From a virus, in the IMG/VR virus record IMGVR_UViG_3300042865_000711, positions 1 through 43,278 of that record: a DNA stretch of 43,278 bases; one strand, 5' to 3'. Of this stretch, positions 5,886 through 43,278 are shown in pieces (the stretch's first letter is position 1; each line of letters begins with the position of its first letter). The notes under the pieces were generated by a model, which was not told the DNA's origin, searched no databases, and saw only the letters and a list, made by a program, of their open reading frames with translations. The position numbers were made by a program, and so were the translations under genes.

Positions 5886-6152
5886 TCAGCAAAACAAATC
5901 GCGTGTATATGAATCGCTTTCTGGTTTGGCTTCTTGCGCCTGTTTTGCGGCTTTCAATTCTTTGCGCCAGATGTCAATTCTTACCAATGGACGCTCTGGG
6001 TCATTGAAATCAATCTTGTAGTCGTGGCCTTGGAGGCGCATACCGCCGTAATGTCTAGCAACACTTAGCTGCGTATCAAGCCAACCATAGATTTTTTCGG
6101 GCGCTGGCGGTGCAGGCGGTTGATCTAAGTCGATTCCCAGCACAATGGTCAT
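5886..6152 (-). CDS. Small hypothetical phage protein
   Basis: An 88-residue protein starting at the ATG that overlaps the previous stop (ATGA), with GGAAAGGAC as ribosome site. A longer frame extends upstream, but that part only mirrors the Ala-rich repeat of the neighbouring gene. The sequence has a Pro-rich start (DQPPAPPAPEK), then YGWLDTQLSVARHYGGM and PLVRIDIWRKELKAAKQAQE, ending in a charged tail. I do not recognise a family. Coupled to the Ala-rich gene upstream, it is probably co-expressed with it. Confidence 0.55.
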   Translation of the reverse strand: MTIVLGIDLDQPPAPPAPEKIYGWLDTQLSVARHYGGMRLQGHDYKIDFNDPERPLVRIDIWRKELKAAKQAQEAKPESDSYTRDLFC

Positions 6153-6688
6153 GGAATGTCCTTTCCAATTTCTGAACAAATACGACAAAGTTCTTCTTTT
6201 TGCGCGGCCCGTGCTGCTTCCCATGCTGCGGACCCTGCTGCCCCTGCTGCCTCTGATGCGGCCCGTGCTGCCTCTGCTGCCCCTGCTGCTGCCCATGCTG
6301 CTGCCCATGCTACCCGTGCTGCTTCACTTGCTGCCCCTGCTGCTGCCCATGCTACCCGTGCTGCGACCCGTGCAGCTTTTAGCTCTTCATCCGTGGCCCT
6401 CCCATTTGCGTAGGCCTCGGCCACGTCAAGCACGGCCAGCGATCGCTGGTCTTTCATTAGATGTTGCACCTGTCGGGCGCACCAAACGGCATAAAGTCTG
6501 ATTTTTTTTTCGTGACCCTTGACTGCCCGCAGGCACCAAAGCGCATCATCGAGGCCGTTTGAATCTAGTATCGTCAAAATAGCCAACGGCTCGTCGTCCG
6601 CTTCCTTCTTGCCCAGATGCTTCAAGAGCTTGACCCAGCCCTTTTCACATGGGGATTTTTTGCGGATAGCGTTTAAGGTGGTTTCCAT
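6149..6688 (-). CDS. Ala-rich repeat protein, paralogue of 36877-37518
   Basis: A 179-residue protein in three parts. A conserved N-terminal domain (about 1-108) has PCEKGW, LLKHLGK, ILDSNGLDDALWCLRAV and WCARQVQHLMKD. A low-complexity block follows (about 110-160), made of Ala-Ala-x-Ala units with Trp, Arg, Gly and Ser. A short conserved end is QKEELCRICSEIG. The paralogue at 36877-37518 shares both ends but has a longer Ala block, so the repeat has expanded or contracted. The layout (RLxAxWCARQV, then DVAExxAxGxATDEELxAAR, then Ala repeats) resembles a widespread group sometimes labelled putative immunity (Imm5-like); function is unproven. The ribosome site is CCGGAG before AAAAAATG, shared with three other accessory genes. 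Confidence 0.6.
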   Translation of the reverse strand: METTLNAIRKKSPCEKGWVKLLKHLGKKEADDEPLAILTILDSNGLDDALWCLRAVKGHEKKIRLYAVWCARQVQHLMKDQRSLAVLDVAEAYANGRATDEELKAARVAARVAWAAAGAASEAARVAWAAAWAAAGAAEAARAASEAAGAAGSAAWEAARAAQKEELCRICSEIGKDIP

Positions 6689-6745
6689 TTTTTCTCCGGT
6701 TAATGCAATGCGCCAAATTCTACAACAAAAAAATTAACAAATATT

Positions 6746-7395: not shown

Positions 7396-7923
7396 ATGGA
7401 TAAAGACGAAGCATTACGCAAGGCGTTGGAGGCATTGACGCCATTTAGCACTCCAAATTGGGCTGGGACTGGTGTTGATAAAGCCAATGAAGCCATCACC
7501 GCCATCAATCAAGCCCTTGCAGCACCTGTGCAGGGGCCTGTGGCGCAATCACTAAAGGATGCTGTGTTCACAGTGCTGGAGGGGTTTACGCTTCCGCATG
7601 ATGTGCGAAAGATTCTCGAAGCCGCTTACTACACCACCCCACCCGCAGCACCTGTGCCGATGACGATAGAACAGCGAAAAGAACTTATCAAACAAGAATG
7701 CAGATACACATCAGAGGCGGCAACTGATGATCATCACTGCCTGATTCAAGCCGCAGAGAAGTTTCACGGCATCACTGCCCACGGCATTAATGAGCAGCCC
7801 ATGAAAACTTTTATAGAATACGCAAAGTTTTTACTGTCGGTAATGGCAGTAATGTTTTTTGCAGGCTCTCTGCTTGCAATTTTTATTGAGGTAATTGTGC
7901 GCATTGCACCATATTTGCATTAA
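7396..7923 (+). CDS. Mosaic phage accessory protein with C-terminal membrane segment
   Basis: A 175-residue protein with ribosome site AAGGAG. It opens with MDKDEALRKALEAL and continues with AITAINQALAAPVQ, the same module that opens the minus-strand gene at 35126-35887. A middle block (MTIEQRKELIKQ ... HHCLIQAAEKFHGI) resembles another module that circulates in phages. The end (about 146-172) is one hydrophobic helix, LLSVMAVMFFAGSLLAIFIE, so the protein is likely anchored in the host membrane. This looks like assembly from interchangeable cassettes. The function of each module is unknown. Confidence 0.5.
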   Translation: MDKDEALRKALEALTPFSTPNWAGTGVDKANEAITAINQALAAPVQGPVAQSLKDAVFTVLEGFTLPHDVRKILEAAYYTTPPAAPVPMTIEQRKELIKQECRYTSEAATDDHHCLIQAAEKFHGITAHGINEQPMKTFIEYAKFLLSVMAVMFFAGSLLAIFIEVIVRIAPYLH

Positions 7924-33484: not shown

Positions 33485-33985
33485 TTAAACCAATCCATGC
33501 ATTGCCATGCTCAGAGTCTTGCCACCATCTCCGGTGATTATGTGATCCAGCACCCTGACATCGACCAAAGCCAAGGCGGCTTTGAGGGTTTGGGTCAAGG
33601 TTTCGTCAGCGCGTGATGGCTTTATATCGCCGCTGGGGTGGTTATGTGTCAACACCACAGCAGCAGCGTTGTGCGCCAGTGCTGCGCGCACCACTTCGCG
33701 GGGGTATACGCTGGTTTGGGTTAGGGTGCCGTGGAACATATCATCAACGGCTATCATTCTGTTCTGTGAGTCCAGGAAAACAACGGCGAACACCTCTTTG
33801 TACTGGTCTACACGCTTTGCAGCATGCATAGCCAAATACTTGCAGATGTCATTGGGGCCGTGGAAGGCCTGCCCCTGTTCTTTCATGCGATTGGCCAAAA
33901 TAGCCATGGCCTGCTCAATGATGCTATCTTCCGTGCTAGCGGTCACTGTGTAGGGTGCTGCGTCTTGGCTTCTTACTTCGTGCAT
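33485..33985 (-). CDS. RadC-type JAB/JAMM domain protein
   Basis: A 166-residue protein; ATG at 33985 has AGGAG 7 nt before it. It holds the metal-binding JAMM core [18 protein letters not shown] (His114, His116, Ser124, Asp127) and the RadC family phrase [20 protein letters not shown]. The N-terminal helix-hairpin-helix of cellular RadC is missing, as in most phage and plasmid copies. The role of such proteins is not settled (suggested in DNA metabolism or anti-restriction). It is transcribed from a good promoter in a large palindrome (34034-34062). Confidence 0.75.
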
Positions 33986-34033
33986 GTCTTTACTCCTGTT
34001 TGCGCCTTTTGCGTTATTGCTGGGCATGGTGCA

Positions 34034-34125
34034 ATTGTATACACTTTTTTGCACTTGTGCAAATTATTTTATTAGGGTTTTCCCTTATAAAATAATTTGC
34101 ACAAAGTCTAAAAACAATGCATGAT
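34034..34125. promoter_or_regulatory. Divergent promoters on a 17-bp-arm palindrome
   Basis: Arms TTGTGCAAATTATTTTA (34055-34071) and its exact complement (34088-34104) flank TTAGGGTTTTCCCTTA. Leftward promoter (for RadC): -35 TTGCAC (34062-34057), 17 bp, -10 TACAAT (34039-34034). Rightward promoter: -35 TTGCAC (34097-34102), 17 bp, -10 CATGAT (34120-34125). Both -35 boxes sit in the palindrome arms, so one bound regulator could control both. Confidence 0.6.
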
Positions 34126-35127: not shown

Positions 35128-35887
35128 ATTTGTACATCGGCTCAAGCCAAGCATGGTCGGCCGTAAATCCTGATAGCCATTCATCCGCTCTTTTTTTGTC
35201 TGTGAAAATCATTTTTGGAGCACCTGCGTGCGGTTTGTTTTTGGTCATGCCTTCCCACGCCACGGCATGCTTAGGCACTGCAAGGGCAGCGCACCAACCC
35301 TCCCACGCCCAACAAACAGGTGAGCCATAAGAATAGGGATTATTTTCACTTAACAGGTCGTCTTCGTTCCACCACTTGTTAAATTCTTCGGTCATGTCAA
35401 TTTTTTGTTTATTTGTTAGCTTTGGTGGATTTTTATCTCCAAAAATCAACGGGCGAATGACCGCCCGAGGTTCATGGGGCTTTGCGTTTGGGGTGGCAAT
35501 TTCGGCATAGTTGGGCTCGTCTTCGTTGCCAAAATAGAAGTGCCACGCCACAGGCTCCTGCTCCGCTTGCTTTACAAGTGCTGGCTGTGCGGGTGGGGTG
35601 GTGCTGTATTTGCGAATGGCCAAGCGCATGGCAGCAATGCCGTCGATAGTCCCGTCTGACTTTTCGACCCAACACTTTTGTAGGTCCATTTCGCTCGGCT
35701 CCTGCACAGGTGCTGCAAGGGCTTGCTTAATGGCGGTGATGGCGCGGTCTTGGATAAGCACCTCGCCAAGTTTCAATTCTCGCGCTGGTACTCCAAAACG
35801 AATACCCATTTCTTGAGTGATAACAATTATCTCTTTGGAGTTTTCCAACGCCTCCAGCGCTAGTTTCAATGCTTCGTCTTTATCCAT
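35126..35887 (-). CDS. Mosaic phage accessory protein
   Basis: A 253-residue protein; ATG at 35887 has AAGGAG. The front MDKDEALKLALEALENSKEI, then AITAIKQALAAPVQEP matches the front of the plus-strand 7396 gene. The middle is Pro-rich (TTPPAQPALVKQAEQEPVAW), and the C-terminus contains DMTEEFNKWWNEDDLL, PVCWAWEGWCAALAV and an acidic end. It is built from recombining modules common in phages; function unknown. It overlaps the gene at 35880 by 8 nt. Confidence 0.5.
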   Translation of the reverse strand: MDKDEALKLALEALENSKEIIVITQEMGIRFGVPARELKLGEVLIQDRAITAIKQALAAPVQEPSEMDLQKCWVEKSDGTIDGIAAMRLAIRKYSTTPPAQPALVKQAEQEPVAWHFYFGNEDEPNYAEIATPNAKPHEPRAVIRPLIFGDKNPPKLTNKQKIDMTEEFNKWWNEDDLLSENNPYSYGSPVCWAWEGWCAALAVPKHAVAWEGMTKNKPHAGAPKMIFTDKKRADEWLSGFTADHAWLEPMYK

Positions 35888-36243: not shown

Positions 36244-36648
36244 TTAGTCTATCTTGCCGCCTGAAGCCAGAACCATCGCCATTGCGTGCTGAATTGCAGC
36301 TTCTTTGGTGCTATGCGCCATGGCTCTATCGAGTAGGATCAAATCAAATCTGTGACCCTCCCAAGTGTATGTGCAATACATTATGCTGCTATCTGCATCT
36401 GGAACAAAATACGAACTTCCCTTAGCTGGCGCAAAAGTCATTGGCTTTGGCACATCCATATCCCCAATTCGGATTGTCTCGGGCTTGCGACGGTATTCAG
36501 CAATATTGGACCAGCGTGGATTTTCATAAATATCAAGCCAAACGCTGCCACCCTTGTTTTTAAACTGCCACCGACTCCAAGGCGCTTCAGTTTCTGCCGC
36601 ATCCTGCGCATAAAGTGCCATGCTGGCCGCGTGTACGTGTCCTGTCAT
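36244..36648 (-). CDS. Phage accessory protein with EYRRKPETIRIGDMDVPKP block
   Basis: A 134-residue protein with AGGAG ribosome site. The middle block AEYRRKPETIRIGDMDVPKP, together with SVWLDIYEN before and SSYFVPDADSSIMYCTYTWE after it, is a small beta-rich domain found in many phage accessory proteins. The last third is helical. No known function. Confidence 0.5.
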   Translation of the reverse strand: MTGHVHAASMALYAQDAAETEAPWSRWQFKNKGGSVWLDIYENPRWSNIAEYRRKPETIRIGDMDVPKPMTFAPAKGSSYFVPDADSSIMYCTYTWEGHRFDLILLDRAMAHSTKEAAIQHAMAMVLASGGKID

Positions 36649-36696
36649 TTCAATACTCCTAGTTAAGTTTCATAGGTAAAGCGGTATTTCGGCACC

Positions 36697-36831
36697 TCAC
36701 CCGCAAATCATCAGGCATTCATGCGCCTGCTTGCATTCTTTGGTCTCACATTGAACATTGCTTTCTACAGCCGCAACAATGCATACCCCCGCCATTACCG
36801 CAATAAACACAATCATTGCAAATTTCACCAT
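36697..36831 (-). CDS. 44-residue membrane micro-protein with four spaced cysteines
   Basis: The protein reads MVKFAMIVFIAVMAGVCIVA, then a hydrophilic tail with Cys at 28, 33, 39 and 43 (QCETKECKQAHECLMICG). The start is a signal-anchor-like helix. The spacing C-x4-C-x5-C-x3-C looks designed for two disulfides or a metal site outside the membrane. It is under the hairpin-leader cassette at 36829-36885. It may be an exported small protein. No family known to me. Confidence 0.55.
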   Translation of the reverse strand: MVKFAMIVFIAVMAGVCIVAAVESNVQCETKECKQAHECLMICG

Positions 36832-36885
36832 TTTTTCTCTCCGGTTTAGGCTGCACCATGCAGCCAATACAAAAAATTATACATT
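36829..36885 (-). promoter_or_regulatory. Promoter-hairpin-RBS cassette (copy 1)
   Basis: -10 TATAAT (36881-36876) overlapping the stop codon of the upstream Ala-rich gene, then a perfect hairpin GGCTGCATGGTGCAGCC (36865-36849), then CCGGAGAG and ATG. The expected RNA start is a few nucleotides before the hairpin. About 51 of 57 bases match the plus-strand copy at 42930-42988. Confidence 0.6.
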
Positions 36886-37518
36886 AATTTCTGCGCAAAT
36901 ACGACTAAGTTCTTTTTTCTGCGCGTCCCATGCTGCTGCCCATGCTGCCCCTGCTGCGTCACATGCTGCGTCCCATGCTGCGGCCCCTGCTTTGGCCCGT
37001 GCTGCCAATGATGCGGCCTCTGCTGTGGCCTCTGCTGCTGCCCATACTGCGTCCCCTACTGCTGTCCCTGCGGCCCATGCTGCGGCCCATGCTGCGTCCC
37101 GTGCTGCCCATGCCGCCCATGCTGCGGTCTCTGCGGCCCATGCTGCGGCCTCTGCTGCTTCCTTTGCTGCGTCCCCTGCTGCTTCCTTTGCTGCGTCCCG
37201 TGCTGCTTTGAGCTCTTCATCTGTAGCAAGACCGTTGGCGTGCCGCTCAGCAACGTCCAGCGCTGCTACTAAGCGCGGGTCTTTCATCAGGTGCTGTACC
37301 TGCCTGGCGCACCAGACTGCAAAAAGTCGGATTTCTTTGTCATGCCCCTTTACTGCCTGCAAGCACCAAATCGCATCCTCTAACCCGTTTGAATCTAGTA
37401 TCGTCAAGAGTTTCAACGGCTCGTCGTCCGCTTTTGTTTTTCCTAGATGCTTCAAGAGATTGACCCATCCATCTTTGCACGGGCCTTTTTTGCGGATTTG
37501 TTTAAGTGTTGTTTGCAT
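36877..37518 (-). CDS. Ala-rich repeat protein, paralogue of 6149-6688
   Basis: A 213-residue protein. N-terminal domain about 1-108: MQTTLKQIRKKGPCKDGWVN, LLKHLGKTKADDEPLKLL, TILDSNGLEDAIWCLQAVKG, LFAVWCARQVQHLMKDPR. Then about 90 residues of Ala-rich repeats (AAWAAWAARDAAWAAAWAA and similar) and an end QKKELSRICAEI. It matches the 6149-6688 protein on both sides of the repeat, with a repeat about 40 residues longer. The leader has a small GC hairpin and CCGGAGAG like the other cassette genes. A link to putative immunity (Imm5-like) proteins is possible but unproven. Confidence 0.6.
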   Translation of the reverse strand: MQTTLKQIRKKGPCKDGWVNLLKHLGKTKADDEPLKLLTILDSNGLEDAIWCLQAVKGHDKEIRLFAVWCARQVQHLMKDPRLVAALDVAERHANGLATDEELKAARDAAKEAAGDAAKEAAEAAAWAAETAAWAAWAARDAAWAAAWAAGTAVGDAVWAAAEATAEAASLAARAKAGAAAWDAACDAAGAAWAAAWDAQKKELSRICAEINV

Positions 37519-37673
37519 TTTTTCTCTCCGGTTGCGCCCTACAGGGCGTTAAAAAATAGTTGATGGTGTTCTTAACCTCTAGCGGTCAGGCCTACTTTAA
37601 AAACTTCTCAGAGCCCTATCACGACATCGACTGTGACTAGCAGCCTTGTTTCGATCAACTCTTCTGATACTAA

Positions 37674-37782
37674 CCATCATTGAAGCGGGCTGGGCTTGAT
37701 TCCAGCTATCCGTCTTTAGGCCAATCTACGGATTCCAATGGCCAATATTGCGTTTCCTTCAACGCCGCCGCTTCAATGATGG
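37674..37782. ncRNA. Candidate structured RNA: 15-bp closing stem with three internal hairpins
   Basis: Perfect inverted repeat CCATCATTGAAGCGG (37674-37688) and CCGCTTCAATGATGG (37768-37782). Inside: GCTGG/CCAGC (37689-37693, 37702-37706), ATCCGT/ACGGAT (37708-37713, 37728-37733), and GCGTT/AACGC (37750-37754, 37761-37765). The whole would fold as a four-way junction on either strand. It lies in the gap 37519-37792 between minus-strand genes. A minus-strand frame through it also looks weakly coding (LKETQYWPLESVDWPKDG), so the RNA reading is not certain. Confidence 0.4.
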
Positions 37783-37792
37783 AACTGGCCTT

Positions 37793-37984
37793 TTACATCG
37801 CCAGCGCGGATGTCTTATTCAATTCTGTTTTGATAACGGGGCCATAGAATAAAAGCCCCGCCATTCGACCTCTGTCGTACTTTCTGGGGTACGCCCCTAA
37901 AATAATCGCATCACTGCCATCCATTCCAAGCGACTCAGGGCGCTCGTAAGATAGCAATGGTGCAATTAGCCAATAAATATTCAT
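37793..37984 (-). CDS. Small hypothetical protein
   Basis: A 63-residue protein: MNIYWLIAPLLSYERPESLG, DAIILGAYPRKYDRGRMAGL and a final LNKTSALAM. The ATG lies 8 nt after the hexapeptide-repeat gene stop with a spaced GGAAGAG. The same frame goes on past the TAA with codons that look coding, as at 33301. No family known. Coupled to the gene before it. Confidence 0.45.
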   Translation of the reverse strand: MNIYWLIAPLLSYERPESLGMDGSDAIILGAYPRKYDRGRMAGLLFYGPVIKTELNKTSALAM

Positions 37985-37991
37985 AAAATTA

Positions 37992-38432
37992 CTACTCTTC
38001 CCAACCGCCCGTCAGACCAAGGCGGACAACCTCAGACTGCAATGCCAAAGCTGCGGCCTTTACTACTGCGCTGTAAATGGTTTTGGATTCTTTCTCTGCT
38101 TTTTCGCAGAATAAACTTAAGCTACCCTTAAAGCAGCCTGCGCGGATTAATATTCCACCTGTGTGAATGTAGATGAATATGTTTCTCCCACTGCCGTCTA
38201 CATTAGACATAGACATAAATCTGATTACTTTAACGCCTTCGCAAGTAAACCTCTTCCCCACTTTTGTCCCGTGGCCCATGGTGGTACGGTTGCCCATGGT
38301 GGTACGGTTACCCATGGTGGTATCGTCGCCCATGGTGGTATCGTCGCCCATGGTGGTATCGTCGCCCATGGTGGCATCGTCGCCCATGGTGGCATCGTCG
38401 CCAAGATTTGCATTGTCTTTCACGCCATTCAT
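37992..38432 (-). CDS. Hexapeptide-repeat (left-handed beta-helix-like) protein
   Basis: A 146-residue protein with AAGGAG ribosome site. After MNGVKDNANLG the first half consists of hexapeptides: GDDATM twice, GDDTTM three times, GNRTTM twice, then GHGTKV. This follows the [I/L/V/M]-G-x-x-[T/S]-x rule of left-handed beta-helices. The second half (FTCEGVKVIRFMSMSNVDGS and SIYSAVVKAAALALQS-like helix) is a separate domain. The repeats come from 18-bp tandem DNA units. Binding or surface role is possible; none proven. Confidence 0.6.
   Translation of the reverse strand: MNGVKDNANLGDDATMGDDATMGDDTTMGDDTTMGDDTTMGNRTTMGNRTTMGHGTKVGKRFTCEGVKVIRFMSMSNVDGSGRNIFIYIHTGGILIRAGCFKGSLSLFCEKAEKESKTIYSAVVKAAALALQSEVVRLGLTGGWEE
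38275..38400. repeat. Seven tandem 18-bp units in hexapeptide gene
   Basis: Seven contiguous 18-bp units of the type CCCATGGTGGTATCGTCG (38275-38400). They differ at few positions: the first two carry GGTACGGTT, the last two GGCATCGTC. Each unit encodes one hexapeptide of the beta-helix gene on the minus strand. Unit number could change by slippage. Confidence 0.8.
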
Positions 38433-38434
38433 TT

Positions 38435-38530
38435 CTAACTCCTTAGTAAAACTTGGTGGCAGGCGCTTATCTCTGCGTCGTAGGGCGGCAATGCGGCCCG
38501 TTCGCTTGGTCGTAGCAGCCTACGATTCAC
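38435..38530 (-). CDS. Possible micro-protein upstream of hexapeptide gene
   Basis: From a GTG at 38530 the frame encodes 31 residues (VNRRLLRPSERAALPPYDAE, then ISACHQVLLRS), stopping 2 nt before the next ATG at 38432. The SD GGAGG is better spaced for an ATT (38548), which would add six hydrophobic residues. Codon use looks coding, but the start is uncertain. The 336-bp region 38531-38866 otherwise holds only promoters and hairpins (38603-38620, 38752-38767). Confidence 0.3.
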   Translation of the reverse strand: MNRRLLRPSERAALPPYDAEISACHQVLLRS

Positions 38531-38775
38531 CAAAAATAAAAAAAGAATTGAAGCCTCCAAGGTTTTTCTGATTGTGCAACACTGACCACAACACACATAA
38601 CCAAGATGTCAACACATCTTAGAACATCAGAACTTTTCTCAAGCGAATGAGCAGCCCGAGTCCCGTAATCTTAGCTATTCAACACCGGATTGCATCGATC
38701 TATAGCCATAAGATTCGTAAATGGATAGCTTCAAATCTTTTTTTACTTACAGCGCCATTTTTGTGGCGATGACGT

Positions 38776-38804
38776 ATTGTAATGCAAAAAATTTATTTAT
38801 TGAA
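38776..38804 (-). promoter_or_regulatory. Probable promoter for repeat-protein unit
   Basis: On the minus strand TTCAAT (38804-38799), 17 bp, TACAAT (38781-38776). It gives a long leader of about 240 nt before the GTG at 38530, with hairpins AAGATGT/ACATCTT (38603-38620) and CGCCA/TGGCG (38752-38767). It diverges from the XRE regulator, a typical early-switch layout. Confidence 0.45.
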
Positions 38805-38813
38805 CTTTTTTTC

Positions 38814-38866
38814 TAGGGGTAAACCCTAAGGTATTGCAGGTAAAAAAATTCTTGTATAATTTTTGT
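38814..38866 (+). promoter_or_regulatory. XRE promoter and operator candidate
   Basis: An inverted repeat TAGGG-GTAAA-CCCTA lies at 38814-38828. The -10 TATAAT (38855-38860) is only 6 nt before the ATG at 38867, so the XRE message should be leaderless. The -35 is weak (TTGCAG at 38834, 15-bp spacing). AAACCCTAA also occurs near the other divergent promoter at 34074 and similarly near TerS. Confidence 0.5.
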
Positions 38867-39172
38867 ATGGCAAAAAAAACACCCCCCTCAATATCGTTCG
38901 ATTCTCCACCATCGCTAGCGTTAATGCTAGCGGGAAGACCTGAAACACCCCTATCAAAAATTGTTGTTGAAATATTAAAACAGATTGATGGCCATCCAAA
39001 TGCATATAAGCTGGCTCAGGAATCAGGCGTAGTCACGCCGACTGTTTACAACATTAGAAAAGGGGAAGTACCCTCTCTTACTACTCTTCTGCAAATTGAT
39101 TTGGCATTAAATGCCAAAGAGCCATTGACTGAAAATCAACCGGATGGAGATAAAGAGGATGAAAAAAGTTAG
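38867..39172 (+). CDS. Cro/CI-like XRE-type regulator (leaderless)
   Basis: A 101-residue protein. Residues about 28-80 form a helix-turn-helix: LSKIVVEILKQIDGHPNAYK, LAQESGVVTPTVYNIRKGEV, PSLTTLLQIDLALN. The second helix pair (LAQESGV-x-TPTVYNIRKGE) is the classic recognition unit of Cro/XRE repressors. The end is charged and disordered. I chose the ATG at 38867 because the -10 box ends 6 nt before it; a TTG at 38834 would lie upstream of that box. It diverges from the repeat-protein operon and precedes the replication operon, so it may control the phage switch. Confidence 0.7.
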   Translation: MAKKTPPSISFDSPPSLALMLAGRPETPLSKIVVEILKQIDGHPNAYKLAQESGVVTPTVYNIRKGEVPSLTTLLQIDLALNAKEPLTENQPDGDKEDEKS

Positions 39173-39174
39173 GT

Positions 39175-39292
39175 TATAATTATCAATTCTGAGGGTTTAG
39201 ACATTGTGAGTACCAGTCACTAACATGTCCAAACCCTCCGGTTGGCCCCTGATTGTTCGCGCTGGTACCGCGAGCTTTCAGGGGTTTTTTTT
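39175..39292 (+). promoter_or_regulatory. Structured leader/attenuator before replication gene
   Basis: -10 TATAAT (39175-39180). Then a long hairpin with arms GAGGGTTTAGACAT and ATGTCCAAACCCTC (39191-39204, 39225-39238; 13 of 14 paired), with GTGA/TCAC inside. It is followed by a rho-independent terminator CCCCTGA ... TCAGGGG (39246-39284, inner stem TCGCG/CGCGA) and T8 (39285-39292). It would make a leader RNA of about 106 nt, ending before the replication gene start. Confidence 0.55.
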
Positions 39293-39337
39293 GGGAAAAA
39301 ATTAAAATGTATCGAAAGTACAGGGCGAGGAGAATCA

Positions 39338-40213
39338 ATGTCAAAACTTTTAATTGAAGAAGCGCCATTGCAGGTTTTGCCATCGCTGGCCATGGCTGTA
39401 GGCCTGAATGAAGCAATTATTCTCCAGCAAATCCACTACTGGCTAGGGCGCGCCAATACCAAAATTGACGGACATACTTGGGTCTACAAAACGGTTCAGG
39501 AATGGGCAGGTGAATTCCCGTTTTGGAGCGAAGACACAATTTCCCGCGCATTGAAAAAACTTAGGACATCGGGCGTTGTTGTTGCCGAACATCTGAGCGA
39601 TAACGCACGCGACCGATCTTTATTTTATCGCATAGATTACACGATGCTGGATGCTTTGGGTGCGGAATGCAAACCCGCAAAATGCGGGAATGGAGATGCG
39701 CAAAATGCGGTAATCGATTCCCGCAAAATGCGGGAATGTTCTATAAAGGCAGAGACTACAACAGAGACTACAGCAGAGAGTTCTTCGGCAAAGCCTCAGG
39801 CGCACCAGATTGCACTTGTTGATAAAAAAGTACAAGATGAAAATTTGCAGGAGCTTTGCAAAAAAACATGGGCAACTTATGCGCATGCTTATTTGCTTCG
39901 ATACGGCATCAAACCAATTCGCAATGCAACGGTAAACGCACAAGTTAAACAGCTTGCAAAACGTTTAGGCTCAAACGCCCCAGAAGTGGCTTGTTTTTTT
40001 GTTGATCGAGTTGGTGACGCTTACGTTATAAAAAATTTCCACGCACTTGGTTTGCTTTTGAAGCAAGCAGAGGCATACCACACCCAGTGGGCGACTGGAC
40101 AAACTATCACGAACACCAAAGCACGCCAAGCCGATCAGTCGCAGGCGAATTTTGATGCTGCTAGCGAGGCGGTCGCAATGGTGCTGGCACGAAGGAGCAA
40201 TAAAAATGAATGA
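39338..40213 (+). CDS. Phage replication initiator protein
   Basis: A 291-residue protein, ATG at 39338 with AGGAG. The N-terminus is winged-helix-like: PSLAMAVGLNEAIILQQIHY, WVYKTVQEWAGEFPFWSEDT, SRALKKLRTSGVVVAEH. This block matches phage replication proteins of the DnaD/O type. A Gln/Asn/Ala-rich linker follows, then a second helical domain (LCKKTWATYAHAYLLRYGIK; FFVDRVGDAYVIKNFHALGL). It probably binds the phage origin and recruits the helicase loader encoded next. Confidence 0.65.
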   Translation: MSKLLIEEAPLQVLPSLAMAVGLNEAIILQQIHYWLGRANTKIDGHTWVYKTVQEWAGEFPFWSEDTISRALKKLRTSGVVVAEHLSDNARDRSLFYRIDYTMLDALGAECKPAKCGNGDAQNAVIDSRKMRECSIKAETTTETTAESSSAKPQAHQIALVDKKVQDENLQELCKKTWATYAHAYLLRYGIKPIRNATVNAQVKQLAKRLGSNAPEVACFFVDRVGDAYVIKNFHALGLLLKQAEAYHTQWATGQTITNTKARQADQSQANFDAASEAVAMVLARRSNKNE

Positions 40214-41003
40214 AAAAGATATACAGTGGCTAGTAAAACAGATCATTGGAACCGCTGAGGCTCTTGGTCAGCAAATTACAGCCACTTCTGCGGCGATTTT
40301 GGCCGAAGACTTGGAAGTGTACCCGCGTGAAATATTGGCAAAATCGCTATCAAGGGTACGCACTGAGCACACGGGCAAATTGACGCTAAAAGCAATAATA
40401 GACCGCATAGATGAGGCCATGGGGCGACCAGCAGCCAATGAAGCATGGTCTGTTGCCTTGGGGGCTATGGATGAGCGGCAGACTGTGGTTTGGACAAATG
40501 AAATGGCTCAAGCTTGGGCTGTCGCTCAGCCCATCGCGCAAAATCGCGATATGGTTGGAGCAAGGATGGCGTTTATAAGTGCTTATGAGCGGCTAGTTAG
40601 AACCGCACGCGAAGAACGACGATTGCCCGAAGTATCGGTTTCAATTGGGTGGGATGCTAGCTTAAGAACAAAGGCGGTAGAGCAAGCCGTTAGCCTTGGC
40701 TATCTGCGCCAAGAACAAGCTGTTGAGTATTTACCCCCGCCAGCGGCAACATTTAACCCCATGGCGTTGCTCGAAGGAAAACCTGTTCAAGCGCCACCAG
40801 AGATAAAGGAGCGATTGAGCCAATTAAGAGAACAAATTATTGCCGCAAATGAGAGAGACAGGATTGAACGTGAGCGCAAGAAACAAGCGGCGGCTAAGGA
40901 TTTGGCAGACCGAAAAGCAGCAGCGCAAGCGATGACCGAAAGAGCCATCATTGAAAATGAAGCTTTGTTTGTAGGCGGAATTGAAAAATTAATTAAAGAA
41001 TAA
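40206..41003 (+). CDS. Possible helicase loader / replication accessory protein
   Basis: A 265-residue protein, ATG at 40206 with AAGGAG and 8-nt overlap with the previous gene. N-terminal region EKDIQWLVKQIIGTAEALG, then DLEVYPREILAKSLSRVRTE, is helical and seen in phage P-type helicase loaders. The middle has AWAVAQPIAQNRDMVGARMA, the end a long charged helix (AANERDRIERERKKQAAAKD). Order after the initiator favours a P-like role, but no Walker motif is seen, so the call is tentative. Confidence 0.45.
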   Translation: MNEKDIQWLVKQIIGTAEALGQQITATSAAILAEDLEVYPREILAKSLSRVRTEHTGKLTLKAIIDRIDEAMGRPAANEAWSVALGAMDERQTVVWTNEMAQAWAVAQPIAQNRDMVGARMAFISAYERLVRTAREERRLPEVSVSIGWDASLRTKAVEQAVSLGYLRQEQAVEYLPPPAATFNPMALLEGKPVQAPPEIKERLSQLREQIIAANERDRIERERKKQAAAKDLADRKAAAQAMTERAIIENEALFVGGIEKLIKE

Positions 41004-41036
41004 TGTGTTTTATGATGAACAATAATGTAAAAAGCA

Positions 41037-41255
41037 ATGAAAAATCACTTCACCGACATGGTGACCCACTTAGTAAGAATGAGGCGAACGCAGGGCTTTG
41101 GAGCCCACGCGGCCTACCGCATTCAAGAGCTCGAAGAAGACGGCTCGGGGCTTTGGACGGGCTTGAAAGCCGCTGTCCTAGAGTCGCTGAAATCCTTAGA
41201 CGAACCGCAAAATTATGGGGAATCAAATGAAGCATCTCACAGTGCAAGAACTTGA
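41037..41255 (+). CDS. Small phage protein in replication operon
   Basis: A 72-residue protein: DMVTHLVRMRRTQGFGAHAA, YRIQELEEDGSGLWTGLKAA, and a charged tail. Its pattern (FGAHA-x-x-x-I-x-x-LE-x-D-x-S-GL) is known from small phage genes next to replication genes. No strong ribosome site is seen. A different frame (41003-41230) also stays open but is less likely. The end overlaps the next gene by 29 nt. Confidence 0.45.
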   Translation: MKNHFTDMVTHLVRMRRTQGFGAHAAYRIQELEEDGSGLWTGLKAAVLESLKSLDEPQNYGESNEASHSART

Positions 41256-41427
41256 AGCGCGTTGGAATGCTGGCGCTGATCGTTTAAACCAATGGACAGA
41301 ATTAGGGTTAGATGAAATTGTTTGGTTTGCGCAAAGCGAATGCCTGAGCGATGCGAGGAAAAAATCTGGTGGAATTGTTTGCCATGAATTGGTTTTCTCA
41401 GATGGTTGCTCTAATGGCGATGCTTAA
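41227..41427 (+). CDS. Small hypothetical protein
   Basis: A 66-residue protein starting at 41227 (GGGGA before). It has KHLTVQELEARWNAGADRL, QWTELGLDEIVWFAQSE and ends GCSNGDA. Its content is acidic and helical. It stands before NinB and is probably part of the same operon. Function unknown. Confidence 0.4.
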   Translation: MKHLTVQELEARWNAGADRLNQWTELGLDEIVWFAQSECLSDARKKSGGIVCHELVFSDGCSNGDA

Positions 41428-41430
41428 ATC

Positions 41431-41871
41431 ATGGAACGAACTGAAATCAAGTTATGCAACCCGCAGCAAGCGCACAAAGAAATTATGGAGCTTTGGCCTC
41501 TGATCAAATCGCACTTGATGGCTGGAACTCAGTTGGTCTTAGAAGTTCGAGGACAAAAGCGCACCACTGATCAAAATAAAATGCTCCATAGCATTCTGAG
41601 AGACCTTAGCGAACAGGTCGAGTGGTTTGGCAAGCGCTTAACATCAGATGGTTGGAAAATTATGTTAACTGGCCACTTAGCAGGCGTTGAGCTAGTGCCA
41701 AACCTAGATAAAAATGGGTTCGTTAGCTTAACAAAAGGCAGTCCAACAAGCAAAATGACAAGACGCGAAATGAGCGATTTGTTTGAGCTAGCTTGGTCGT
41801 TTGGCAATGAAAACGGCGTTAAATGGTCGCCTACATCCACAGGAAGATTGAAAAATGAAAACACTAATTGA
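41431..41871 (+). CDS. ninB: NinB-like recombination protein
   Basis: A 146-residue protein. The family signature is clear: LVLEVRGQKRTTDQNKMLHS, ILRDLSEQVEWFGKRLTSDG, WKIMLTGHLAGVELVPNL, DKNGFVSLTKGSPTSKMTRR and ELAWSFGNENGVKWSPT. NinB (Orf) in lambda binds single-stranded DNA and helps recombination in place of RecFOR. It is followed by NinG after two small genes, as in lambdoid nin regions. It lacks a good ribosome site and starts 3 nt after the previous stop. Confidence 0.85.
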   Translation: MERTEIKLCNPQQAHKEIMELWPLIKSHLMAGTQLVLEVRGQKRTTDQNKMLHSILRDLSEQVEWFGKRLTSDGWKIMLTGHLAGVELVPNLDKNGFVSLTKGSPTSKMTRREMSDLFELAWSFGNENGVKWSPTSTGRLKNENTN

Positions 41872-42127
41872 AATGGCCCGAGAGGCAGGATTTGAGGTGC
41901 ACGAACGCAAACAACAGGCGAGAGTTGGTTTGGACGCGATATGCGGCATTAACTCAACGGCAAAGCTTGAACGCTTTGCAGAGCTTATCCGCGAAGACGC
42001 TACAGCCAAGGAGCGCTACCGCTGCTCTCAGTTGGCCATTAAATGCTCGTGGGAAGTTGAGGGAACTCAGAGCGCTTTACGTGTTGAGGCTCTTGATGAA
42101 GCTATACGATCAGGAGTCCAAGAATGA
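41855..42127 (+). CDS. Small phage protein (MKTLIEMAREAGFE type)
   Basis: A 90-residue protein: MKTLIEMAREAGFEVHERKQ, LERFAELIREDATAKERYR, and a helical C-terminus. The FAELIREDA turn is a common feature of phage accessory proteins of unknown role that stand beside NinB/NinG. It overlaps NinB by 17 nt and the next gene by 4 nt (ATGA). Confidence 0.5.
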   Translation: MKTLIEMAREAGFEVHERKQQARVGLDAICGINSTAKLERFAELIREDATAKERYRCSQLAIKCSWEVEGTQSALRVEALDEAIRSGVQE

Positions 42128-42351
42128 CCCGCAAAGAAATAGACGCGCTATGGCAACGCGCAATGCGTGAATCGATTGAAGCTGGCGAACTGTACACGCG
42201 CTACAAATTTGCCAAACTTGTCGCGGATGCCGAACGCGAGGCGTGCGCAATGGTGTGCGACAACGATAGTTCCGAGGCAATGGAATTTACTGGTACAACA
42301 AAAGTGGGCGGTTATTTTGCTAGTCAAATCCGAGCAAGAAGCCAGATATGA
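42124..42351 (+). CDS. Small phage protein (EACAMVCD type)
   Basis: A 75-residue protein: MTRKEIDALWQRAMRESIEA, FAKLVADAEREACAMVCDN, and an IRARSQI end. The REACAxVCD block followed by an AxQIRAR end is a common small phage module. It overlaps NinG by 4 nt, so it belongs to the same translated chain. Function unknown. Confidence 0.5.
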   Translation: MTRKEIDALWQRAMRESIEAGELYTRYKFAKLVADAEREACAMVCDNDSSEAMEFTGTTKVGGYFASQIRARSQI

Positions 42352-42926
42352 CCAAGCCCCGAAAATGCGAACTCTGCAAGAACCCATTCATCCCCGCCAG
42401 ACCCCTCCAAAACTGGTGCAGCATTGATTGTGCCGTGGTGCTAGGGCAGCAGGCGGTTGAAAAAAAGAAAGCCAAGGAAAAAGCAGAAGACCGCAAACAA
42501 ACCAGAGAAAAGCTGGCCGCGATGGAGAAAAAATCCGTTTTAGTCAAACGTGCACAAAGGGCGGTTAATCTGTTTATCAAAATGAGGGACTGGGGGAAGC
42601 CCTGTATTTCTTGCAACAAGCCACACAACCCCACCCCAAATTATTGGGATGCTGGTCATTTTAGAAGCGTAGGAAGTGCTGTGCACATGCGATTTATTGA
42701 AGAAAATATCCATGGACAATGCAAAGAATGTAATAATTGGCTTGGTGGCAACGTTTTAAACTACGAAATAGGCCTGATAGAACGCATTGGGCAACAAGCC
42801 GTTAATGCCTTAAAAGCCGATCAAACTTTACGCAAGTACAGCCGAGATGACTTGATTGCAATAGCTGCGCACTACAACGAAAAAGCCAGGCAATTAAAAA
42901 AACAAATTAATTTACACGCGGGTTAA
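42348..42926 (+). CDS. ninG: NinG/Rap-like Holliday-junction nuclease
   Basis: A 192-residue protein. N-terminal Cys block KPRKCELCKNPFIPARP, then NWCSIDC; a coiled coil (KKAKEKAEDRKQTREKLAAM); then the nuclease core WGKPCISCNKPHNPTPNYW, DAGHFRSVGSAVHMRFIEEN and IHGQCKECNNWLGGNVLNYE. CxxC pairs and the H-x-x-N pattern fit NinG (Rap), a structure-specific endonuclease in phage recombination. It ends the plus-strand operon before the cassette at 42930. Confidence 0.85.
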   Translation: MTKPRKCELCKNPFIPARPLQNWCSIDCAVVLGQQAVEKKKAKEKAEDRKQTREKLAAMEKKSVLVKRAQRAVNLFIKMRDWGKPCISCNKPHNPTPNYWDAGHFRSVGSAVHMRFIEENIHGQCKECNNWLGGNVLNYEIGLIERIGQQAVNALKADQTLRKYSRDDLIAIAAHYNEKARQLKKQINLHAG

Positions 42927-42929
42927 AAT

Positions 42930-42988
42930 CCGGTGTATAATTTTTTATATAGGCTGCATGGTGCGGCCTCAACCGGAGAGAAAAAATG
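42930..42988 (+). promoter_or_regulatory. Promoter-hairpin-RBS cassette (copy 2)
   Basis: -10 TATAAT (42936-42941), hairpin GGCTGCATGGTGCGGCC (42952-42968, one G-T pair), then CCGGAGAG and ATG at 42986. RNA should start just before the hairpin. It matches the minus-strand copy at 36829-36885 at about 51 of 57 bases although the genes behind are unrelated. Confidence 0.6.
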
Positions 42989-43278
42989 AAAAAGAACTTG
43001 AAACAACTTACTTTCGCCATATGGCATTTCAGTGGCGGCGAAAAAGTTGATGGTGCGCCAATCGGCGTGTCGGGCGACTTGTCTGGCGTGCGGGGCGACT
43101 TGTCTGGCGTGCGGGGCGACTTGTCTGGCGTGTCGGGCGACTTGTCAGACGTGTGGGGCGACTTGTCAGGCGTGCGGGGCGACTTGTCAGACGTGTCGGG
43201 CGACTTGTCAGACGTGCGGGGCGACTTGTCTGGCGTGTCGGGCAACTTGTCAGGCGTGCGGGGCAACTTGTCAGACGT
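42986..43278 (+). CDS. Heptapeptide-repeat protein, cut by window end
   Basis: Starts MKKNLKQLTFAIWHFSGGEK, VDGAPI, then ten heptapeptides of the form (G/D)-V-(S/R/W)-G-(D/N)-L-S up to the window edge; the true length is unknown. The pattern is like a beta-solenoid with Val and Leu as buried residues. Similar repeats are seen in other phage and bacterial proteins of unknown role. It is under the hairpin cassette at 42930 and stands behind NinG. Confidence 0.6.
   Translation, partial: MKKNLKQLTFAIWHFSGGEKVDGAPIGVSGDLSGVRGDLSGVRGDLSGVSGDLSDVWGDLSGVRGDLSDVSGDLSDVRGDLSGVSGNLSGVRGNLSD
43064..43278. repeat. 21-bp tandem repeat, about ten units
   Basis: Contiguous units such as GGCGTGTCGGGCGACTTGTC (21 bp each) from 43064 to the window end. 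Changes between units are mostly at codons 1, 3 and 5 of the heptad (GGC/GAC; TCG/CGG/TGG; GAC/AAC), so they keep the frame and the Val/Leu core. The number of units could vary by slippage. Confidence 0.8.

Follow-up and report, generated by a model that had tools for sequence, protein, structure and literature searches.

The window analysed here is an entire IMG/VR record (43,278 bp) from an unclassified tailed phage and carries a 55-nt leader that is a discrete unit and has been duplicated within the genome before two unrelated accessory genes. Its exact sequence was found nowhere else, and it is probably a fairly ordinary phage leader duplication, of a kind already known from other phages by different names. 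The window also holds a lambda-like switch near 38.4-38.9 kb and encodes a DnaD/O-like replication protein and NinG, and since the record stops inside the heptapeptide gene behind one of the leaders, that end of it is truncated.

The duplicated leader

A repeat search of the window gave an inverted pair of 55 nt and 93% identity, here called copies A and B (Table 1), and pairwise alignment shows 51 of the 55 positions to be identical, with four substitutions. The sequence-only reading had rightly seen a near-identical pair, but with about six differences in 57 bp. The block spans exactly from the -10-like TGTATAAT through the ATG, with the consensus TGTATAATTTTTT[G/A]TAT[T/A]GGCTGCATGGTGC[A/G]GCCT[A/C]AACCGGAGAGAAAAAATG, and homology extends neither upstream of the -10 nor past the ATG; beyond these limits the similarity drops rapidly. 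The longest exact run common to the copies is about 18 bp. The pair is above chance. Flanking and coding sequences are unrelated between the copies, and the pair does not belong to a single duplicated gene block, which is the objection that the sequence-only reading had raised against itself.

The hairpin proposed from the letters, GGCTGCA-TGG-TGCRGCC, folds well at both full copies, with -13.6 and -11.9 kcal/mol and z scores of -2.8 and -2.4. All four substitutions fall outside the -10, the left arm, the loop and the Shine-Dalgarno sequence, an observation of little statistical weight with two full copies and four changes. In the right arm an A has become G, which turns a U-A pair into U-G and so retains the pairing, and this single wobble change is the whole of the covariation evidence. 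TATAAT is present in both copies, but no convincing -35 box was found at either, nor does a consensus promoter scan list either site; the promoter that had been proposed is thus a probable one, named for its -10. The block of copy B begins 8 nt past the NinG stop. As had been read from the translations, the genes behind the copies have nothing in common, one being a 44-aa membrane or secreted protein without any PHROG, Pfam or phage tblastn match, and the other a heptapeptide protein of the GDLSGV type. No terminator was found after the 44-aa gene in a consensus scan.

Table 1. Positions of the leader copies, related start sites and neighbouring genes in the window
Feature	Position	Strand	Basis
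Leader copy A (-10, hairpin, Shine-Dalgarno, ATG)	36829-36883	-	alignment, repeat search
TATAAT of copy A, overlapping the TAA stop codon (36877-36879) of the Ala-rich gene that lies upstream	36876-36881	-	
Hairpin of copy A, GGCTGCA-TGG-TGCAGCC	36849-36865	-	folding
Small membrane/secreted protein (44 aa) behind copy A	36697-36831	-	
Leader copy B	42934-42988	+	alignment, repeat search
TATAAT of copy B	42936-42941	+	
Hairpin of copy B, AGGCTGCA-TGG-TGCGGCCT, 8 pairs, U-A became U-G	42951-42969	+	folding
Gene with GDLSGVx heptapeptide repeats behind copy B, truncated at the contig end	42986-43278	+	
Third start site, different hairpin CGCCCTGTAGGGCG (37535-37548), then the same AACCGGAGAGAAAAAATG	37516-37548	-	
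Ala-rich gene, phrog_18326	36877-37518	-	
Fourth start site, AACCGGAGAAAAAATG, without hairpin	6686-6701	-	
Second Ala-rich gene, paralogue of 36877-37518	6149-6688	-	
TGTATAATTTTTGTATGGC before a small switch-region gene (ATG 38867), resembling the cassette promoter TGTATAATTTTTTRTATNGGC	38853-38871	+	inference

The ribosome site reaches further than the hairpin. The motif CCGGAGAGAAAAAATG has exact matches at three starts (36831, 37518 and 42986), and with up to 3 mismatches allowed the window holds 5 matches against 0.5 expected; the longer AACCGGAGAGAAAAAATG is exact at the same three starts and is two bases shorter at 6688. An inverted repeat lies directly upstream of the ribosome site at three of the four sites, two of them sharing one sequence. 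The likeness seen earlier at the two Ala-rich genes therefore stands for the ribosome site at 37518, behind a hairpin of its own, and is reduced at 6688 to a shortened site with no hairpin; the whole leader of 37518 folds no better than shuffles (z -0.45). These two genes are 77% identical over 300 nt, and because they are paralogues, gene duplication partly explains their common ribosome site. Judged by identity (93% against 77%), the leader duplication may be younger than that of the Ala-rich genes, although selection on the leader could mimic this. The -10 region before the gene at 38867, TGTATAATTTTTGTATG, is similar to that of the cassette, and this gene may be leaderless, as TATAAT-TTTTGT-ATG places its start at nearly the same spacing from the -10 as the predicted transcription start of the cassette.

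Some other features of the region deserve mention. A GDDATM hexapeptide-repeat protein with a weak Hexapep match (37992-38432, minus strand) is the third repeat-protein gene in the region of the Ala-rich and heptapeptide ones. A RadC/JAB-like ORF (33488-34027, minus strand; HNHPSGD motif, by eye) has its ATG (34027) 6 nt past TACAAT and is possibly leaderless; contig L095 carries a promoter and N-terminus (MAGNNAGRNKGEKSW) resembling these in its slot after NinG. The palindrome TAGGG-N4-CCCTA recurs near promoters (TAGGGTTTTCCCT, CTAGGGGTAAACCCTAAGG, TAGGGTTTCCCCTA) at 34045-34114 and about 38827-38846 of the window, after NinG in L095 and in L009, and is a possible operator of the phage's repressor that is common to related contigs. 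A 47-nt inverted repeat of 94% identity (7492-7538 and 35697-35743) apparently lies within coding sequences.

The leader in other genomes

We searched 2.9 million viral contigs (IMG/VR) and 84,980 genomes (GTDB species) with DNA patterns, exact or lightly relaxed, that could miss diverged copies, and 50,697 phages (INPHARED) with blastn. Neither exact nor relaxed patterns gave a second true copy in the contigs and genomes, the pattern of hairpin plus ribosome site had no match in either set, and blastn gave short unrelated matches only. The 18-mer of the ribosome site is found at 9 places in IMG/VR, all of them gene starts and mostly without a hairpin. Among all loci compared, the best 55-mer match besides the two copies is 32/55, on the opposite strand of the window itself, and the best one in another phage is 31/55. 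Rfam, at E up to 1, has no match in positions 36500-43278.

The relaxed pattern gave one viral and five genomic matches, of which a single isolated one, in Pusillimonas, is a plausible leader; one other (L127) lies inside a coding sequence. The Pusillimonas chromosomal leader, GCTGCATGGTGCGGC followed by AACAGGAG, was considered as a host source and is treated as a coincidence, because it is the sole match in 268 genomes of the family and the number of genomic matches is near chance. The leader has not been inherited along with the gene families either, since the cassette is present at none of 79 loci with the Ala-rich family and none of 11 with the heptapeptide family; upstream of the 79 Ala-rich relatives, one AACCGGAGA is the sole likeness to the ribosome site, and none has the hairpin. 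The mobile leader into which new genes are plugged, as the sequence-only reading had it, is accordingly borne out as a discrete unit duplicated before unrelated accessory genes, but no movement between phages was found: with these patterns and blastn the same cassette was seen in none of the IMG/VR contigs, GTDB genomes or INPHARED phages.

Duplicated leaders in other phages

Leaders within each genome were compared by anchoring them at the start codon, a method that recovered the SAS/ESAS of TM4 as positive control and by which the pair in the window scores 42. The survey took in another 59 phage genomes, whole or in large part, most of them picked for an Ala-rich, heptapeptide or NinG gene or for the ribosome site. 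About 16 of the 59 have some leader common to non-paralogous starts, several of these being tandem block duplications or intragenic repeats. The best parallel, L123/G269, has two families of duplicated leaders with sequences unlike those of the window: in the first, a leader of about 110 nt has the stem GCCAA-ATTAA-TTGGC and precedes a heptapeptide-repeat gene as well as a gene unrelated to it; the second has TTGACA, TAATAA, the stem GGTGGC-AATAAA-GCC(A/G)CC and AAGGAG, precedes two other unrelated genes and likewise shows a change from U-A to U-G in its stem. Adjacent genes in L010 have GCACA-AGGA-TGTGC-ATAACC in common, and in ctUtU524 47 nt with a CGGTC...GACCG stem are shared. G277 and G303 carry promoter-leaders in three copies that have no hairpin, and in G277 these precede small membrane proteins; the duplicated leader of G275 is hairpin-free as well. 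The G277 leader, TTGACC...TATAATAAACACATA...AACA, stands on the minus strand of L160 at 7676, 9408 and 13546 before unrelated small membrane-like proteins; in L189 (G295) stems of the type GCCCC-GAMA-GGGGC lie directly before AGGAG at the three gene starts 14141, 14472 and 15165 on the plus strand.

Among 80 replication-region loci that were chosen independently, through another protein, four have a shared leader, none of them with a hairpin. Hairpins with at least 7 pairs, at least 5 of them GC, occur just before the Shine-Dalgarno sequence 70 times in the surveyed phages against 28.7 expected from dinucleotide shuffles. Among families of duplicated leaders, about 8 of 20 have a hairpin, against 19% of all starts, and in this non-random sample, counted by eye, an enrichment among duplicated leaders is suggestive only. 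Duplicated leaders are thus not rare, and those with hairpins are a minority.

Discussion

We put at about even chances the explanation that the block is an expression leader, consisting of a -10, a 5' hairpin that protects the mRNA and an open ribosome site, that was copied within the genome to unrelated genes. A sigma-70-type -10 (TGTATAATTTTTTRTAT) would start transcription about 8 nt downstream, which gives the predicted mRNA end 5'-AU(U/A)GGCUGCAUGGUGC(A/G)GCCU(A/C)AACCGGAGAGAAAAAAUG. The stem-loop would then lie 2-3 nt behind the 5' end, with 5-6 nt between it and an exposed GGAG; there it could hinder decay that depends on the 5' end, and insulate the ribosome site from upstream sequence and so keep it open. 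The likely effect would be a short, stable and well translated mRNA. Recombination or template switching at the borders between genes may account for the copying, which would equip unrelated accessory genes with the same expression. That the block is limited by the -10 and the ATG, and that the same layout exists with other sequences in L123/G269, speaks for this explanation; the lack of a clear -35, the number of full copies (only two) and the hairpin-free leaders of G277, G303, G275 and the four replication-region loci speak against it.

The main rival, which we consider unlikely, takes the 17-bp 7-3-7 palindrome for a DNA operator where transcription starts, through which a phage repressor or activator would co-regulate both genes. 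Seven-base arms with a 3-bp spacer just past the -10 are a plausible geometry, Cluster O mycobacteriophages carry 17-bp inverted repeats of just this form (PMC4351075), and the authors of the Cluster K study prefer DNA binding for the ESAS repeats, finding little support for hairpins (PMC3203893). The palindrome is however present at only two sites in the genome, and the likely operator of this phage is the other repeat, TAGGG-N4-CCCTA. The RNA reading is weakly favoured, because the arm substitution in copy B keeps the RNA pairing but breaks the dyad symmetry of the DNA, and because a different stem occupies the same place before 37518.

It is also rather improbable that the pair is a recent chance duplication of a promoter and leader, or the residue of a gene duplication with its coding parts replaced, in which the hairpin has no special role. 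A fair share of the surveyed phages have duplicated leaders, several of them without hairpins, and the Ala-rich paralogues show that duplication occurs in this genome; the hairpin has nevertheless been kept, and an identity of 51/55 that halts at functional limits, with unrelated flanks and genes, also speaks against this reading. Very improbable is a node of recombination or inversion, where the copies would let the 6-kb switch/replication region flip or modules be exchanged. The copies are indeed in opposite orientation, one at either end of the segment with the switch, the replication genes and NinG, models with boundary sequences exist, and the slot after NinG differs in relatives, which at 53-64% protein identity include no close one for comparison. 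Against it stand the shortness of the longest exact run and that neither a recombinase site nor an inverted form was seen.

Returning to the copied expression leader, a wider version is that portable leaders of promoter, hairpin and ribosome site have evolved independently in different phages and are copied within genomes to equip new accessory genes, so that the leaders and not the genes are the reused module. We regard this as doubtful. Should leaders be copied independently of genes, their duplicates would be a marker, readable from sequence only, of recently plugged-in accessory genes, and would also flag natural parts for high expression in phages other than the actinophages in which such start repeats were described.

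Among known systems, phage morons resemble the two genes as accessory genes that apparently have their own promoter, here with a good -10 and no clear -35. They differ in that the consensus scan gave no terminator after the 44-aa gene and that no empty site was seen in a relative, and the name moron given to these genes earlier is provisional. Stem-loops that stabilise mRNA at the 5' end are established biology (PMC7509114), and those of the ompA type are similarly placed, near the (here predicted) 5' end with the ribosome site free; in the window both the transcription start and the stabilisation are predictions. The repeats of Cluster O have the arms and spacer of the window palindrome, but number 34 copies genome-wide, about a third of them inside genes, and are loosely tied to starts (PMC4351075), unlike the window.

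The closest described kind comes from Cluster K mycobacteriophages, whose start-associated sequences (SAS/ESAS) have extended inverted repeats (PMC3203893); such repeats are also found in clusters EF and EG of Microbacterium phages (PMC7302621). The Cluster K leaders and that of the window have no sequence similarity, the Cluster K consensus being GGGATAGGAGCCC and the window site AACCGGAGAGAAAAA, and differ in hosts and in number, with 2 full copies in the window against many, and the repeat of the window is compatible with an RNA hairpin, unlike the view taken of ESAS by the Cluster K authors. What they share is the arrangement: a conserved ribosome-site block before the start codon of unrelated genes, here with three exact CCGGAGAGAAAAAATG starts and one shortened, and an inverted repeat just upstream of it.
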